Positions 32,481 through 61,143 of a DNA stretch of 64,000 nt are shown here, piece by piece. How positions within the stretch are numbered: the stretch's first letter is position 1; every line of letters begins with the position of its first letter. The position numbers were made by a program, and so were the translations under genes. Source of the DNA: Falsiroseomonas oryzae (GTDB taxonomy: Bacteria > Pseudomonadota > Alphaproteobacteria > Acetobacterales > Acetobacteraceae); contig NZ_JAPSMD010000002.1 in assembly GCF_027856955.1 (NCBI RefSeq), positions 1 through 64,000 of the forward strand, given 5' to 3'. The notes beneath the pieces are model-generated. The model saw nothing but the letters and a program-made list of their open reading frames with translations, ran no database searches and was not told the origin of the DNA.

Positions 32481-33908
32481 TCAGTCTTCTCCGCCGTCTT
32501 CGGCGCCGAGATCGCCCAGACCGTAGCGACGCAGCTTGACGTAGAGACTCTGCCGGCTCAGGCCGAGCATCTCCGCCGCGGATGCACGATTGTCGCCGGT
32601 CAGGTCCAGAGCAGCCTCGATGCAGAGACGTTCGATCGCATCGGTCGCCTCGCGGACAAGATCCTTGAGGGGAACGCGGCCGATCAATTCCGTCAGCTGC
32701 TCCACAGAGCGGGTTGCCCCATTGCCGGTGCGGGTGGGTGGACGCACCCGCGGGCCGACGTCCCGGATCGAGAAGCCGAAGCATTGCTGGCCGGCGTGCA
32801 GAACCGATACGCCGGAGATCTCGACATCGGTCAGCGAGCCAAGCTCGCCACGCAGTGTGCTGCCGTAGAGCCGCACGGCGCCGCGGCTGCGCAGCGTTGC
32901 AACAAGGACTTCGAACTCAACGCTTTGCCGCCCCAGCCATCGATCCAGAGGCGCTCCCCGCAACTGGTCCTCAGCCGTGAGCTGAACCATGTCGAGGAAG
33001 GCAGAATTCGCCGAGATGATGCCGCCGTCCGCGTCTGTCACGACGAAGGCGTCGGGCACGCCATCCAATACCTTGAGCAGTCTGGCGCGCGAATCGGGAA
33101 GGGACTCGGCGTTCTGCGTCGCATCTGCGATCTCGAGCCGCACCAGCAACAGCAGCCCGCCCTCCTGACGGAAGGTGGACGCCGAGACGATGACCTCCGG
33201 CCCGTCGTCTGCCAGACGCACCCTCAACTCATCGGCACGGCCCGCGCTCCGAAGTGTCGCAAGCAGCGTCTGCAGTGTCGGCCGATCTTCCGGTGCGAAT
33301 GCCTCCGGCAAAGGGCGACCGGGCAAGCGGCGTACGCTGCGCATGAACAGCTTCTGCGCCGGCGGGTTCGCCTCAAGCACGCGCAGCGACTCGGCGTCGA
33401 GGACCAGCAGCGGGTCCACTGACATCTGGAACAGCAGTCGGTAGCGGGTCTCGGCTTGGCGGAGGCGAGAGTAGTCGCGCTCCATCGACTGCTGGACTTC
33501 GACCAGGCGCTGCTGCAGTTGCGACAACGGGCGAAGGTCGCGGCCGAACACCACCCGCCGTCCCGCGCGCCCGAGCGGTGCGACGGAACACAGGATGGGT
33601 AGCGATGCACCCTCTAGGGCCACATGGTTGACATGGCGCCAGCGCGGGGCGTCGCTCTGCGCGACGCCAAGAAGTGCCTCGACCTTACTGCGGCTATCGC
33701 GGCTGACAGTATCGATCCAAGGACGCCCGACCCAACCGTCAGCGACACTGAGGTCATGGGCAAGTTCGTTGCTGCCGAAGCCGACATCCCGGATGGAGCC
33801 TGCCTCGTCAAGCACGAGGGCAAGATCCGCCGATGCGACGACAAGCCCGGCTGCAGCCTCTGCATCGAGGTGTCCAAGCGACGTCTTGGGGGATCTGAAC
33901 AATTTCAC
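32481..33908 (-). CDS. ppsR: PpsR/CrtJ transcriptional repressor of photosynthesis genes
   Basis: The 475-residue regulator has an N-terminal PAS region, a coiled-coil (LQQRLVEVQQSMERDYSRLR), two further PAS domains and a C-terminal Fis-type HTH (ASAAEMLGLSRQSLYVKLRR). PpsR binds TGT-N12-ACA palindromes and represses bch, crt and puc genes under oxygen. Only three Cys are present (C107, C376, C429). C429 sits just before the HTH like the redox Cys424 of Rhodobacter sphaeroides PpsR; a counterpart of its Cys251 is not seen. The start is GTG 33908 with AGGA six bases upstream. It lies after aerR and before bchG. Matching operators occur at 35026, 55659, 58972 and 61100. Confidence 0.95.
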   Translation of the reverse strand: MKLFRSPKTSLGHLDAEAAAGLVVASADLALVLDEAGSIRDVGFGSNELAHDLSVADGWVGRPWIDTVSRDSRSKVEALLGVAQSDAPRWRHVNHVALEGASLPILCSVAPLGRAGRRVVFGRDLRPLSQLQQRLVEVQQSMERDYSRLRQAETRYRLLFQMSVDPLLVLDAESLRVLEANPPAQKLFMRSVRRLPGRPLPEAFAPEDRPTLQTLLATLRSAGRADELRVRLADDGPEVIVSASTFRQEGGLLLLVRLEIADATQNAESLPDSRARLLKVLDGVPDAFVVTDADGGIISANSAFLDMVQLTAEDQLRGAPLDRWLGRQSVEFEVLVATLRSRGAVRLYGSTLRGELGSLTDVEISGVSVLHAGQQCFGFSIRDVGPRVRPPTRTGNGATRSVEQLTELIGRVPLKDLVREATDAIERLCIEAALDLTGDNRASAAEMLGLSRQSLYVKLRRYGLGDLGAEDGGED

Positions 33909-34008: not shown

Positions 34009-34968
34009 TCAGTCCTCCTGCAGAAGCAATGCAAGCAGCGTCTCCGCCTTCAGCACGGCCTGCTGGCCGTCGCTCGCGGTCGCATCGGCGCCGACAAGTG
34101 CAGCCAGCTCAGGACGTTCGGTGAAGACCTGGCCGCCCACAAGCACGCCGAGATGCGGATTGCGTGTGGCACGACGTATGTCGCGGATGAGGCCTGAAAG
34201 GGCGTCGAGGCGGCTTTCGCCGGCGAGCGAGAAGCCGACCACGCTGAACCACTGCTTGCGCGCCAGCGCCACGAGCTCGCGCGCCGGTGCACCTGTCGCG
34301 CTATGGACGTCCCAGCCCTGCCGCCGAAAGAACTCCCCGACCATGAGAAGGCCGAAGCTGTGCTGCTCGCCAGGCGTGGCGGCAAGGAGAATGCGCCGAT
34401 CGGCATCTCTCCGGCCGGGCCGGGGGCCGAAGGCATGGCTATTCTCGAGGACAAGCTGCTGAAGGCAGCAGAGACCGACCGTCACGCTCGTGAAATCGCA
34501 CCGGTCCTCGGACCAGAGATCGCCGAGGTGCCTGGCGACAGGCGCCAGAAGTTCCAGGTAGATCCTCTCCAGCGGTAGCTGCCGGGCATGCATGCTTGTC
34601 ATGAAGGTCTGCGCCGCGGCGAGATCGCCCTGCATGACAATGGAGGCGAGCGCCTCGACATCGCCAGAACTCGGACCCGATGCAGCCGCCGCATCGGGAT
34701 GCTCCCAGACTGCCCTTTCGGCACGCGAAAGGAGGAGCCTCGGCAGCACCTGTGCCTCAAGCGTTTTCGCGAGGAGCGAGATCTGGCGTTGCTGAGCGGC
34801 GCGCTGACGTGACATGGCCGGCCCGAACGGGGCCTCCATCGCCTCCGGTCTTGCGCGCGCCAATACGCGGCTCGGCATCGGGCCCGGAGGGAGCGCGGCC
34901 ACATCGTGATGTCCATGTTCGCTCATCTCGACCAGTGGCGCTCCCGCACTCATCGGTTTCGAGGCCAT
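34009..34968 (-). CDS. ppaA: AerR/PpaA cobalamin-binding antirepressor
   Basis: The 319-residue protein has the layout of AerR/PpaA: a variable N-terminus (residues 1-75), a helical B12-cap region (VMQGDLAAAQTFMTSMHAR, ERIYLELLAPVARHLGDLW), and a Rossmann-like cobalamin domain (ATPGEQHSFGLLMVG onward, VVGFSLAGESRLDAL, VLVGGQVFTERPEL). The classical DxHxxG is replaced by a sequence that keeps the His (EQHSFG), as is usual for this family. It modulates PpsR in response to light and B12. ATG 34968 has GGAG six bases upstream; a GTG directly before it is less likely. It is divergent from bchF and precedes ppsR by 100 bases. Confidence 0.92.
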   Translation of the reverse strand: MASKPMSAGAPLVEMSEHGHHDVAALPPGPMPSRVLARARPEAMEAPFGPAMSRQRAAQQRQISLLAKTLEAQVLPRLLLSRAERAVWEHPDAAAASGPSSGDVEALASIVMQGDLAAAQTFMTSMHARQLPLERIYLELLAPVARHLGDLWSEDRCDFTSVTVGLCCLQQLVLENSHAFGPRPGRRDADRRILLAATPGEQHSFGLLMVGEFFRRQGWDVHSATGAPARELVALARKQWFSVVGFSLAGESRLDALSGLIRDIRRATRNPHLGVLVGGQVFTERPELAALVGADATASDGQQAVLKAETLLALLLQED

Positions 34969-35009
34969 CACCCTCTCCCATCCGCGACTGTCATGTCCCG
35001 CGCCGGATC

Positions 35010-35043
35010 TGTCAATCCCGATTTACGTCAATGACGCTTGACA
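35010..35043. promoter_or_regulatory. Candidate PpsR operators and -35 element in the aerR-bchF divergent region
   Basis: CGTCAATGACGCTTGACA (35026-35043) matches TGTCA-N8-TGACA with one mismatch, and its right arm is the -35 hexamer TTGACA (35038-35043). A poorer site, TGTCA-N8-TTACG (35010-35027), abuts it on the left. With a 17-base spacer, transcription would begin near 35073, just before the bchF ATG at 35096. Confidence 0.55.
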
Positions 35044-47282: not shown

Positions 47283-47600
47283 ATGACGGACCACTGGGGA
47301 GTGGGCCGGGCGATCTTCGGCGGTCGAACCGTCGAGGTGCCCTGCACAGTGGAAATCGAGAGGACTGCCGAGTTCCTGTATGCGAACGCGATCCCGGAGG
47401 GAATCGACCTTCGGCCTGGCGACCGCGTCCTGGTGCACGGTGCGCCCGACCATATCGACTTCGGCGAGCGCATCTCTTTCGCGACGACCGCGACGGTCTA
47501 CAGGGCCGGTCCGATCGAGCGGTTCTGGACCCAGTGGTCCGCGCTGTTCGAACTGACCGAGCTCTATCACTGCGGCTTCGAGCCGAAGGAGGTTGCATGA
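47283..47600 (+). CDS. Small hypothetical protein between puhC and acsF
   Basis: A 105-residue product with no signal or membrane helix. It begins [20 protein letters not shown] and contains [22 protein letters not shown], a short beta-rich segment, and an aromatic C-terminal part ([22 protein letters not shown]). Genes of this size occur at this spot in other purple-bacterial PGCs, but I know no function. Its stop overlaps the acsF start (ATGA), so it is co-translated with the oxidative cyclase. A role as cyclase accessory or assembly factor is a guess. Confidence 0.75.
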
Positions 47601-48673
47601 ACGCGGTGACGCCGGCCGGGCGGCCTTCCTCCTCGTCGGAAAGCACCAAGCTCGCCATGACGGAGACTGTGCTTTCCCCGAGGTTCTACACGACCGATTT
47701 CGCTGCGATGGACTCGATCAGCGTCGAGAGCGTCCGCGAGCAGTGGGACAAGCTTATGGCGGAGTTCCACGCCGACCCGAACAAGGGCCACTTCATTCGG
47801 ACCGAAGAGTTCGATGCCTTCGACCTCAACACCCTGCCCGAGCCGCTGCAGAAGGAGTTTCTGGAATTTCTCGTCAGCAGCGTGACGGCGGAGTTCTCGG
47901 GTTGTGTGCTCTACGCCGAGATCAAGAAGCGCGTGAAGAATCCGGACATGAAGGATCTGTTCGGCGTCATGGCGCGCGATGAATCCCGGCATGCCGGCTT
48001 CATCAACGACACGCTGAAGGACATGAATGTCGGTGTGGATCTGGGATTTCTGACTAGGGCAAAGAAGTATCATTACTTCCAGCCAAAATTCATCTTCTAT
48101 GCTACTTATCTTTCCGAGAAGATCGGTTATGCGCGCTATATCACTATTTTCCGTCAGTTCGAGCGGCATCCAGAACTGCGCTTCCATCCGATCTTCAAGT
48201 GGTTCGAGAAGTGGTGCAACGACGAGTTCCGGCATGGCGAGGCGTTCGCGTTGCTGATGCGTGCCAACCCTGATCTCGTGAAGGGCGTGAACCGCTACTG
48301 GGCGCGGTTCTTCCAGCTTGCCGTCTTCGCGACAATGTACGTGCGTGACCATGCACGGCCGGAGTTCCACAAGGCTCTTGGGATGGACGCGACGGACTAC
48401 GACATGCGCGTCTTCCGCATCACCGAGGAGATCTGCCGGCAAGCGTTCCCGGATACGCTCGACATCGACAACCCCGCCTTCCTCCGGAACCTCGAACGGC
48501 TGAATGCCATTGCGGAGGCGATGAACCGGGCCAAGGCTCAAGGTGGCGTGGTGGGCAAGGCGAAGCGGGTCGGCTTGTCGGCAATGGCAGCCGCTGTGTT
48601 CGGAAGGCTCTTCCTGCTGCGTCCGCGCCGCCACGCTCTGCCGGACGACGCCCGTCTGTCGCCGGCCTGGTAG
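47597..48673 (+). CDS. acsF: Mg-protoporphyrin IX monomethyl ester oxidative cyclase (aerobic)
   Basis: The 358-residue diiron enzyme forms ring E of bacteriochlorophyll using O2. The ferritin-like ligands are visible: the first Glu in [14 protein letters not shown] in RDESRHAGF, and the second EXXH in [12 protein letters not shown]. The upstream frame to 47534 is an extension; ATG 47597 overlaps the previous stop. A stretch of about 100 bases within the gene (48061-48160) is markedly AT-rich, with 38 G/C by my count, and uses TAT, ACT and CTT codons rare in its neighbours, though the reading frame and motifs are intact. The oxygen-independent counterpart bchE is also present. Confidence 0.96.
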
Positions 48674-49501: not shown

Positions 49502-49515
49502 TTGATCACGATCAA
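49502..49515. promoter_or_regulatory. Perfect FNR/FnrL box upstream of hemA
   Basis: TTGATCACGATCAA matches TTGAT-N4-ATCAA at every position. Its centre is about 103 bases before the hemA ATG at 49612. In Rhodobacter hemA is a known FnrL target. Class II spacing would place the start of transcription near 49550. Confidence 0.8.
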
Positions 49516-54621: not shown

Positions 54622-55674
54622 ATGCCGCCAGCGACGCCCGAAACCGTGCATGCCGATCTCGCGGCCTGCCGGGCGATGCTGTCGGGTGGCTCCAAGTCCT
54701 TCGCCGCGGCCGCCAGGCTGCTGCCTCGTCGAGTTGCCGAGCCGGCGACGGCACTCTACGCCTTCTGCCGCGTGGCCGACGACCTGATCGATGAAGGCGG
54801 CGGGCCCGCTGCCCTGGCCGAGCTGCGTGGCAGGCTCGATGGGATCTATGGCGGCCAGCCTTTTCCTCACCCCGCAGACCGCGCCTTTGCGCGCGTCGTG
54901 GCGCGCTTTGCCATCCCGCGTCCGTTGCCTGAGGCTTTGCTGGAGGGCCTGGCCTGGGATGCGGAGGGGCGCCAGTGTCCTGATGCGGCGGCGCTCGAGG
55001 CCTACTCGGCTCGTGTTGCAGCGGCCGTAGGTGCCATCATGACGCTGCTGATGGGCGTGCGGGATGCCACCGCGATCGCGCGGGCCTGCGACCTGGGCGT
55101 GGCGATGCAGATGACGAATATCGCCCGCGACGTCGGAGAGGACGCCCGCAACGGCAGGCTCTACCTGCCGCATGACTGGCTGCGACAGGAAGGGATAGAG
55201 CCGGCCGCCTTCCTCGACGCGCCAGACTTCACGCCCGCATTGGCGCGTGTCGTCGCACGCCTGCTCCGAACGGCCGACGCACTCTATGCGCGATCGGAGG
55301 CCGGGATTGCCTGCCTGCCGCGCGACTGTCGCTCCGGTATTGCCGCCGCCCGCTTCGTCTACGCCGAGATTGGGCGGCAGGTGGAACGGCAGGGCCTGGA
55401 CTCCGTCTCCCGCCGTGCTGTCGTCCCCGGACATCGCAAGCTGCGACTGATGGCGCGTAGCCTGAGCCTGCTGGCGCATCGCCCCGCCGACCTTATCGCG
55501 CCGCCGCTGCCTGGCACCGCCTTCCTGGTCGACGCCGTGGCAGACATGCCCGCGGCCGGCGAAGCCCTTCCTCCGGCTCCGGCCTTCAGGGACCGCTTGC
55601 TCTGGGCCGTCGAACTGTTCGATCGCCTCGACCAGCTCGATCGCGGCGCCGCCGGATCTGTCAGGGCAGCTTGA
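54622..55674 (+). CDS. crtB: Phytoene synthase
   Basis: The 350-residue trans-isoprenyl synthase joins two geranylgeranyl diphosphates to phytoene. Both Asp-rich motifs are intact: ADDLID near residue 58 and NIARDVGEDARNGRLYLP near residue 170. SGGSKSFAAAARLLP is the family start. ATG 54622 is used; a TTG at 54604 overlapping the bchO stop is an alternative. Its usual partner crtI is not adjacent and not in the window; instead crtB sits between bchO and bchE. The last codons carry a PpsR operator and the stop overlaps an FNR-like box belonging to bchE. Confidence 0.93.
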   Translation: MPPATPETVHADLAACRAMLSGGSKSFAAAARLLPRRVAEPATALYAFCRVADDLIDEGGGPAALAELRGRLDGIYGGQPFPHPADRAFARVVARFAIPRPLPEALLEGLAWDAEGRQCPDAAALEAYSARVAAAVGAIMTLLMGVRDATAIARACDLGVAMQMTNIARDVGEDARNGRLYLPHDWLRQEGIEPAAFLDAPDFTPALARVVARLLRTADALYARSEAGIACLPRDCRSGIAAARFVYAEIGRQVERQGLDSVSRRAVVPGHRKLRLMARSLSLLAHRPADLIAPPLPGTAFLVDAVADMPAAGEALPPAPAFRDRLLWAVELFDRLDQLDRGAAGSVRAA

Positions 55675-55702
55675 CACACATCAAGGTCAATTTACGCGGA
55701 CA
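55659..55702. promoter_or_regulatory. Tandem PpsR operators upstream of bchE
   Basis: TGTCAGGGCAGCTTGACA (55659-55676) is a perfect TGTCA-N8-TGACA. After exactly eight bases a second site follows, GGTCAATTTACGCGGACA (55685-55702), with two mismatches. The eight-base spacing is that of cooperative PpsR/CrtJ pairs such as at bchC of Rhodobacter. The right arm of site 1 contains TTGACA, a possible -35, and the site overlaps the end of crtB. Confidence 0.75.
55671..55684. promoter_or_regulatory. FNR-like box upstream of bchE
   Basis: TTGACACACATCAA differs from TTGAT-N4-ATCAA at one position. Its left arm is shared with the right arm of PpsR site 1 and its right arm fills the spacer to site 2. 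The centre is 72 bases before the bchE ATG; class II spacing would put the transcription start near 55719. Confidence 0.65.
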
Positions 55703-55749
55703 GGGGTGATCCTGTTCCCGGCCGGCACCGGGCCGGCGGGAGCGTCCCG

Positions 55750-57453
55750 ATGCGTATCGTCCTGATCCATCCCAACTACCATTCCGGCGGTGCGGAGATC
55801 GCGGGCAACTGGCCGCCCGCCTGGGCGGCCTACCTGACCGGCTACCTGAAGGCCGAGGGCTACACCGACATCACCTTCATCGACGCCATGACGAACCACC
55901 TGAGCCACGATCAGGTGCGCAATCGTCTGCTGGAGCTGAAGCCCGACCTGATCGGCGCCACCGCCATCACGCCTGCGATCTACGAGGCGGAGGCACTCCT
56001 CAAGCTGGCCAAGGAAACCTGCCCCGATGCCGTGACGGTGCTCGGCGGGATCCATGGCACCTTCATGTATCCGCAGGTGCTGACCGAAGCCCCCTGGATC
56101 GACGTGGTGGTGCGTGGCGAAGGCGAGCAGGTGCTGCTCGACCTCGTGCGCTGCATCGACGATGGGCACTGGCCCGCCGAACGCGATGCCGTCAAGGGCA
56201 TCGCCTATGCGAAGGATGGGCAGATCGTCGCAAATGCCGCGGCGCCGCCCATCGCGGATCTGGACAGGATCACGCCGGACTGGGGCGTCCTGGATTGGTC
56301 CAAATACATCTACATCCCGATGAACACGCGCGTCGCCATTCCGAACCTGGCGCGCGGCTGCCCGTTCACCTGTTCCTTCTGCAGCCAGTGGAAGTTCTGG
56401 CGCGACTACCGCGTGCGGGACCCGAAGAAGGTGGTGGACGAGATCGAGGATCTCGTGCGCAACCACGGCGTCGGTTTCTTCATCCTGGCGGACGAGGAGC
56501 CCACCATCCACAAGAAGAAGTTCGTGGAGTTCTGCGAGCGGCTGATCGAACGCAACCTGCCGGTGCTCTGGGGCATCAACACGCGCGTGACGGACATCCT
56601 GCGCGACGAGGCGCTGCTGCCGATGTACCGCAAGGCTGGCCTCATCCACGTCTCACTTGGCACGGAAGCGGCGGCGCAGCTGAAGCTCGACCGCTTCAAC
56701 AAGGAGACCACGGTCGCGCAGAACAAGAAGGCCATCCAGCTCCTGCGCCAGAACGGCATCGTTGCCGAGGCGCAGTTCATCGTCGGGCTCGAGAACGAGA
56801 CGCCGGAGACGCTGGAAGAGACCTACCGCATGGCGCTCGACTGGGACCCGGACATGGCGAACTGGGCCATGTACACGCCCTGGCCGTTCAACGACCTTTT
56901 CAAGGAGCTCGGCGACAAGGTCGAGGTGTTCGACTTCTCGAAATACAACTTCGTCACGCCGATCATGAAGCCTGACGCCATGGATCGCGCCACGCTGCTC
57001 GACCGGACGATGCACAACTACCGCCGCTTCTACCTGCGCAAGACGTTCCTCGGCTACCCCTGGATCAAGGACAAGGTGCGCCGGAAATACATGCTCGGCT
57101 GTCTCTGGGCCTTCGCGAAGTCCGGCTTCCAGCGCACCTTCTACGATCTGGGCAAGGTGGGCTACTGGGGGCCGCAGTCGAAGAAGAGCGTGGACTTCCA
57201 TTTCGACACCTCGCGTACGCTGGAAGCTCAGGCCGCGCGTGCGCCGCACAATGCGCTGTGGAAGACGATGCATCGGCCGAAGGCGAAGCTGCCCGCGGCC
57301 AATGCTGCGGCTGCGGCAAAGGCCTGTGGCGGCGGTACGGAGCAGCTGGTGGAGGATGACGAGACCGCCCGCATGGAGCCGGGGGTCGTCAAGGCGTGCG
57401 GCGGCGGGACGCAGCAGCTGCCCGAATCCGTGAACACGCCGGCTCGGGACTGA
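55750..57453 (+). CDS. bchE: Mg-protoporphyrin IX monomethyl ester anaerobic cyclase
   Basis: The 567-residue radical-SAM enzyme forms ring E without oxygen, taking the oxygen atom from water. The cobalamin-binding N-terminal domain ([28 protein letters not shown]) is followed by the [4Fe-4S]-SAM motif CPFTCSFC (CxxxCxxC) at about residue 205 and the TIM-barrel half with [11 protein letters not shown] and HVSLGTEAA. The C-terminus is unusual: [10 protein letters not shown] (from residue 524) and [10 protein letters not shown] (from residue 548) are near-identical repeats 24 residues apart. PpsR and FNR-like sites lie upstream. bchJ follows after four bases. Confidence 0.96.
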
Positions 57454-58971: not shown

Positions 58972-58989
58972 TGTCAAGAAAGACTGACA
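58972..58989. promoter_or_regulatory. PpsR operator upstream of crtE
   Basis: TGTCAAGAAAGACTGACA is a perfect TGTCA-N8-TGACA. A degenerate second copy (CGACA-N8-TGACG, 58998-59015) follows at the eight-base spacing. The site lies in the 239-base divergent region between the DUF2189 gene and crtE, 82 bases before the crtE ATG. Confidence 0.75.
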
Positions 58990-59070
58990 GTCATTGGCGA
59001 CAGGACTGCCTGACGGTTCCTCTTGCCATGCGTCGGCGCCGATCGCGGTGGGCCGGCGCGGAGACTGCGC

Positions 59071-61099: not shown

Positions 61100-61143
61100 T
61101 GTCAGTTTATCTTGACAGATTTGACTGTCAGGCTAGGGTGACG
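61100..61143. promoter_or_regulatory. Tandem PpsR operators and promoter of bchC
   Basis: TGTCAGTTTATCTTGACA (61100-61117) is a perfect TGTCA-N8-TGACA. Eight bases later TGTCAGGCTAGGGTGACG (61126-61143) matches with one mismatch. TTGACA (61112-61117) and TAGGGT (61134-61139) with a 16-base spacer form a candidate promoter entirely covered by the two sites. Confidence 0.82.

Follow-up and report, generated by a model that had tools for sequence, protein, structure and literature searches.

Bacterial photosynthesis has two classic oxygen regulators, PpsR/CrtJ and FNR/FnrL, which are usually described at separate sites. FNR is inactive in oxygen. At class II FNR promoters with overlapping repressor operators, the activator sits at −41.5 and is occluded by the repressor. 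In Rhodobacter sphaeroides, FnrL occupies TTGACatgcATCAA in vivo upstream of bchEJGP (PMC2908626), and mutation of the T of TCAA lowers FnrL-driven bchE activity by ∼90% (PMC4263372). In R. capsulatus, tandem CrtJ/PpsR operators lie 8 bp apart at bchC, and the CrtJ motifs of bchEJGP are 45–500 bp apart (PMC6199135). CrtJ acts as a repressor or an activator (PMC9144470). Control by FnrL at bchE, like CrtJ operators in tandem, is already known. We found no description of a half-site common to FNR and PpsR in the open literature searched.

The window analyzed here, a 64,000-nucleotide stretch of Falsiroseomonas oryzae DNA, carries upstream of bchE a composite element in which such a half-site occurs (Table 1). 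Operator 1 shows no mismatch to either TGT-N12-ACA or the extended TGTCA-N8-TGACA motif, and the FNR box differs from TTGAT-N4-ATCAA at one position. The right arm of operator 1 contains the FNR left arm, with six bases in common, and the FNR right arm falls within the 8-bp spacer between operators 1 and 2. The original prediction had placed a perfect PpsR site, a weaker second one and an FNR-like box here, interleaved in this way, and its coordinates agree with ours. As at R. sphaeroides bchEJGP, a TTGAC left arm lies upstream of bchE, and the direct FnrL activation seen there, with the TCAA arm needed, agrees with the architecture predicted here. A shared-arm PpsR operator is not described in the R. 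sphaeroides work (PMC2908626, PMC4263372), and is the addition of this locus. When compared to R. capsulatus bchEJGP, with its CrtJ motifs 45–500 bp apart, the operator is here fused to the FNR box and its partner is weak and unconserved.

Table 1. Features of the bchE control region and of the regulator and cyclase genes considered
Feature	Position	Strand	Remarks
PpsR/CrtJ operator 1, TGTCAGGGCAGCTTGACA	55659..55676	.	perfect; same register in 34/127 bchE upstream regions
FNR/FixK-type box, TTGACACACATCAA	55671..55684	+	one mismatch; 55671-55676 common with operator 1
26-bp composite, TGTCA-N7-TTGACA-N4-TCAA	55659..55684	.	single exact match in genome
Weak PpsR operator 2, GGTCAATTTACGCGGACA	55685..55702	.	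8 bp after operator 1; poorly conserved
Predicted −10 element, GATCCT (or TGATCC one base left)	55708..55713	+	23 nt after FNR box
crtB	54622..55674	+	stop TGA 55672-55674 within shared arm
bchE	55750..57453	+	
ppsR, first copy	32481..33908	-	TIGR02040 over cut-off, match 32517-33839
ppsR, second copy	C2:79464-80762		outside window; TIGR02040 over cut-off
acsF, aerobic cyclase	47534..48673	+	TIGR02029 over cut-off, match 47639-48628

Exactly 10 bp, or one helical turn, separates the dyad center of operator 1 from that of the FNR box. Judged from this geometry, PpsR and FNR would approach the same face of the DNA and read the same TGAC bases. The claim that a repressor and an activator could not bind together is thus upheld as far as sterics go: simultaneous binding is implausible because the centers are 10 bp apart and six bases are shared, binding itself being inferred. 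What sets the element apart from generic class II FNR promoters is that the two proteins would recognize one half-site in common, and that the composite is found repeatedly, in two mirror orientations, at one and the same gene. With such a half-site in front of the gene for the oxygen-labile cyclase, repression and activation would become direct competition.

We consider it likely that the bchE promoter is activated by FNR and that PpsR occludes the activator site, so that the promoter operates as an AND-NOT gate. An FNR-family oxygen-sensing activator would bind 55671–55684, at ∼ −41.5 from a start near 55719, and would bring in RNA polymerase at a promoter whose −10 is poor and which lacks a separate −35. 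The binding sites of PpsR would be 55659–55676 and, with weak and cooperative binding, 55685–55702. With the PpsR right half-site being the FNR left half-site, binding would be mutually exclusive, and PpsR would repress by occluding the activator. Expression of bchE would then require active FNR, in the absence of oxygen, together with inactive PpsR, either reduced or antagonized by AerR- or phytochrome-type partners. The prediction of an exclusive oxygen switch is plausible as to exclusion, but too simple as to oxygen. Since oxygen alone would already silence FNR, PpsR most plausibly adds another input, an AND-NOT condition set by redox, light or B12 through AppA/AerR/BphP-type partners. It also counts against the gate that, with FNR off in oxygen, the exclusion may be of consequence only when oxygen is intermediate or under light.

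We collected bchE upstream regions from named genome contigs, family genomes, a class-wide genome draw (which contributed only six bchE loci) and plasmids; the only Rhodobacteraceae are two plasmid records, of which L162 has separate sites and L163 shares the right arm. An FNR-type box was defined as TTG[AC]-N6-[TG]CAA, or ≤1 mismatch to TTGAY-N4-RTCAA, upstream of the start codon, and a PpsR site as ≤1 mismatch to TGTCA-N8-TGACA. The survey comprised 127 distinct bchE upstream regions, and in 111 of them an FNR-type box stood at a similar position. A PpsR operator lay on the left arm of the box, as in the window, in 34 of the 127, on the right arm in 15, and apart from the box in 29; in a further 33 the box stood without any PpsR site. 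Reverse complementation converts the right-arm arrangement into the left-arm one; a single 26-bp module thus occurs in both orientations. These ∼50 natural variants in two orientations offer a means of asking whether site overlap is selected or incidental.

When reduced to 87 non-redundant promoters, 36 had a shared arm (24 left-arm and 12 right-arm), against 0.66 expected by chance and a maximum of 4 in 2000 shuffles of the flanks with the box fixed; these promoters are related, and the survey counts are not independent, which weighs against the gate as well. The closest loci were those of Falsiroseomonas and Roseomonas relatives. Among congeners, the motif columns agreed in a mean of 6.8 of 7 sequences, vs. 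4.6 downstream and 4.1 upstream of the element. Conservation of the arms in close relatives, on which the original prediction had staked itself, holds for operator 1 and the FNR box, both among congeners and at much greater distance. In seven bchE upstream regions (L005–L007, L012, L087, L089 and L091), the FNR right arm reads CGCAA in place of ATCAA, with the spacing and the PpsR operator kept. Regulator specificity may have changed in this group, since the T-to-G substitution resembles one that weakens the R. sphaeroides site; several Roseomonas-type shared-arm relatives with TTGAC-N4-CGCAA are a further point against the gate.

Alignment of the left-arm class on the box revealed A at +37 (22/30) and T at +41 (20/30) as the sole downstream information peaks. 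Counted from the box start in these 30 shared-left-arm promoters, they correspond to a −10 hexamer 22–23 nt after the box, the spacing of an FNR class II promoter, and the box would be centered at ∼ −41.5 from a start that is itself a prediction. For F. oryzae, the conserved −10 predicts that bchE transcription starts near 55719–55720. Given this start, operator 1 would span ∼ −60 to −43 and operator 2 ∼ −34 to −17.

The same alignment bears on another reading of TTGACA, namely that it is a plain sigma-70 −35 hexamer lying under PpsR, with a fortuitous likeness to FNR. TTGACA does match the −35 consensus, and −35 regions often lie under PpsR/CrtJ operators. We nevertheless rejected this reading, which we regard as very improbable: there is no information peak 16–18 bp past TTGACA, where its −10 would be required, and the sole downstream peak is at class II FNR spacing. 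Moreover, FNR-type boxes stand alone in the 33 promoters without a PpsR site, and a KCAA right arm is kept at the PpsR sites of bchE and not at other PpsR sites.

We then consider whether the composite could be a chance resemblance in one genome. The motifs are short, their spacers are loose, and PpsR-like sites are fairly common (11 in the window vs. 4.5 expected). However, the 6.45-Mb genome holds one exact copy of TGTCA-N7-TTGACA-N4-TCAA and no other at 0 or 1 mismatch. When 35 genomes (this one and 34 relatives) were searched with a right arm of TCAA or GCAA allowed, all eight exact copies lay at bchE (8/8, compared by coordinates), and the reversed-pattern control gave 0 matches. Among PpsR sites defined without reference to FNR, those at −115 to −60 of bchE had the FNR partner arm at the exact spacing in 43/53 cases, vs. 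1/61 for sites elsewhere in the same loci (Fisher p ∼1e-20, which ignores relatedness and is given for effect size only). Genome-wide uniqueness and conservation leave chance with a negligible likelihood, and rule it out for operator 1 and the FNR box, though not fully for operator 2. Many purple bacteria have the shared-arm fusion or an exact mirror image of it, which makes a sequence accident very unlikely. A near-copy at C2:79203-79228 proved to be an ordinary PpsR-like site adjoining a crtD-like gene, in which the FNR arm failed.

A tree of BchE proteins (104 rows, FastTree) required at least 18 changes between shared-arm and other promoters, at least 13 for the left-arm and at least 9 for the right-arm state, counts that are rough given the low support of several deep branches and the horizontal transfer of bchE. 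Right-arm modules are nested in left-arm groups, in Paracraurococcus (L010/L011) and in Burkholderiales (L025/L035 and L018). Because of this nesting, the register has flipped while arm-sharing was retained. We tentatively propose, as an idea slightly more apt to fail than to hold, that control of bchE through a mutually exclusive PpsR/FNR half-site is widespread and selected in Proteobacteria, and that exclusion itself, and not where the repressor sits relative to the promoter, is conserved through repeated inversions of the 26-bp module.

Arm-sharing might instead be the cheapest way to place a PpsR site beside an FNR box, exclusivity not being what selection keeps. Since TGAC is common to both motifs, a PpsR half-site comes ready-made with an FNR box, and new PpsR sites would form with least effort in the two registers that share an arm. 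In line with this, the overlaps fall almost entirely in the two arm-reusing offsets, −12 and +8, with other overlapping offsets hardly seen, and the 29 promoters with separate sites often carry theirs at +33. Against it stand the survival of arm-sharing through register flips and the excess over the box-fixed shuffles, which omit selection for a PpsR site somewhere in the promoter. Such economy is possible as the whole account, although we lean against it, and arm-sharing may partly reflect it. Right-arm modules often carry a further PpsR site 25 bp downstream, at offset +33, as in L018, L058, L149 and L154. The +33 site falls over the predicted −10 and start, and it occurs alone in many separate-site promoters.

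Operator 2, which the original prediction had set exactly eight bases after operator 1, is present at that spacing and non-random in this genome, but lies outside the conserved element. It has 1 mismatch to TGT-N12-ACA and 2/10 to the extended motif. The probability of ≤2 mismatches at the fixed 8-bp spacing is 5e-5 with bchE upstream regions away from the box as background, and 2e-4 by local shuffle. Partners spaced by 8 bp also occur at the two other strong PpsR sites of the window, at 58972 (3 mismatches) and 61100 (1 mismatch). Operator 2 is thus probably a real, weak partner of operator 1 in F. oryzae. A conserved tandem was rejected: mismatches rise to 3 in the nearest relative (L003), 5 in L004, 6 in L086 and 7 in L009, L095 and L097. 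This lack of conservation is a further point against the gate as drawn above, with its cooperative second operator. Some left-arm relatives have an upstream partner at −38 (≤2 mismatches in 4/34, ≤3 in 7/34), which is absent from this genome (8 mismatches).

The TGT-N12-ACA palindromes with an 8-bp spacer known from R. capsulatus bchC have their counterpart at bchC here, and weakly at bchE: strong tandem PpsR operators, TGTCAGTTTATCTTGACA and TGTCAGGCTAGGGTGACG, separated by 8 bp, occupy 61100–61143 at the 5′-end of a bchC-like ORF. At 58972–59015, upstream of a crtE-like ORF at 59023, a perfect PpsR site is followed 8 bp on by the degenerate partner.

The element had also been described as lying inside the end of crtB and as constraining its coding sequence. 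Of its 44 bases, crtB covers only the first 16 (55659–55674), over which the operator writes the last crtB codons. Ten loci, counting the window, have the TGA stop of crtB placed exactly within the shared TTGAC arm. In L009, L095 and L097, crtB ends upstream of the operator and the element is still there; in Betaproteobacteria the element is present and no crtB-like reading frame was found adjoining bchE. Because the element persists where crtB stops earlier or is absent, we rejected crtB coding constraint as the cause of conservation, and the overlap reads as an incidental consequence of the element.

The genome encodes both cyclases, AcsF and BchE, and the AND-NOT logic is open to test in organisms that carry the aerobic enzyme as well. 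Two TIGR02040 matches over cut-off provide a cognate PpsR. The best FNR candidate, L117, has C-X2-C-X7-C near the N terminus and a central Cys that aligns to a Cys of FNR of known structure, four cysteines in all, together with an ETVSR recognition helix of the E-xx-SR type. The models closest to it are those of FixK, FnrL and Fnr, and it scores under the NCBI FnrL and FixK equivalog cut-offs. This shortfall weakens the case for the FNR-activated gate, as does L118, another of the several Crp/Fnr proteins encoded, which has a compatible ETLSR helix and no N-terminal cysteines and could bind the box instead of L117.

Other proteins may be at work, either a DNR/FixK-like Crp/Fnr protein on the box or one PpsR paralogue that activates bchE. 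The several Crp/Fnr proteins, of which at least one more (L118) has a suitable helix, and the two ppsR genes, the second beside a bacteriophytochrome gene, are compatible with such an arrangement; that some PpsR proteins are activators, as CrtJ can be (PMC9144470), also detracts from the gate. Given the FNR cysteine pattern and alignment of L117, and that bchE is an FnrL target in R. sphaeroides, we judge it unlikely.

In L166 15446-18990 (G000:C2:79446-82990), the second ppsR is followed directly by a bacteriophytochrome-like gene (named from its sequence), a pair that recalls the paired PpsR proteins of photosynthetic Bradyrhizobium. The first ppsR adjoins an ORF at 34009–34971 (minus strand) that resembles the B12-binding antirepressor AerR/PpaA, and PpsR-like sites at 35010–35043 lie between this ORF and the next rightward one. 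At 49502–49515 a perfect FNR box, TTGATCACGATCAA, precedes a hemA-like gene; in R. sphaeroides, hemA is described as one of the FnrL targets. Finally, five genomes of the genus share a conserved PpsR-like site, TGTCAACCATNNTTGACA (L161 1501-1526, that is G000:C30:3219-3244, and L190–L193). Its position in L161, the 5′-end of an xseB-ispA-like gene pair, would link isoprenoid supply to PpsR.
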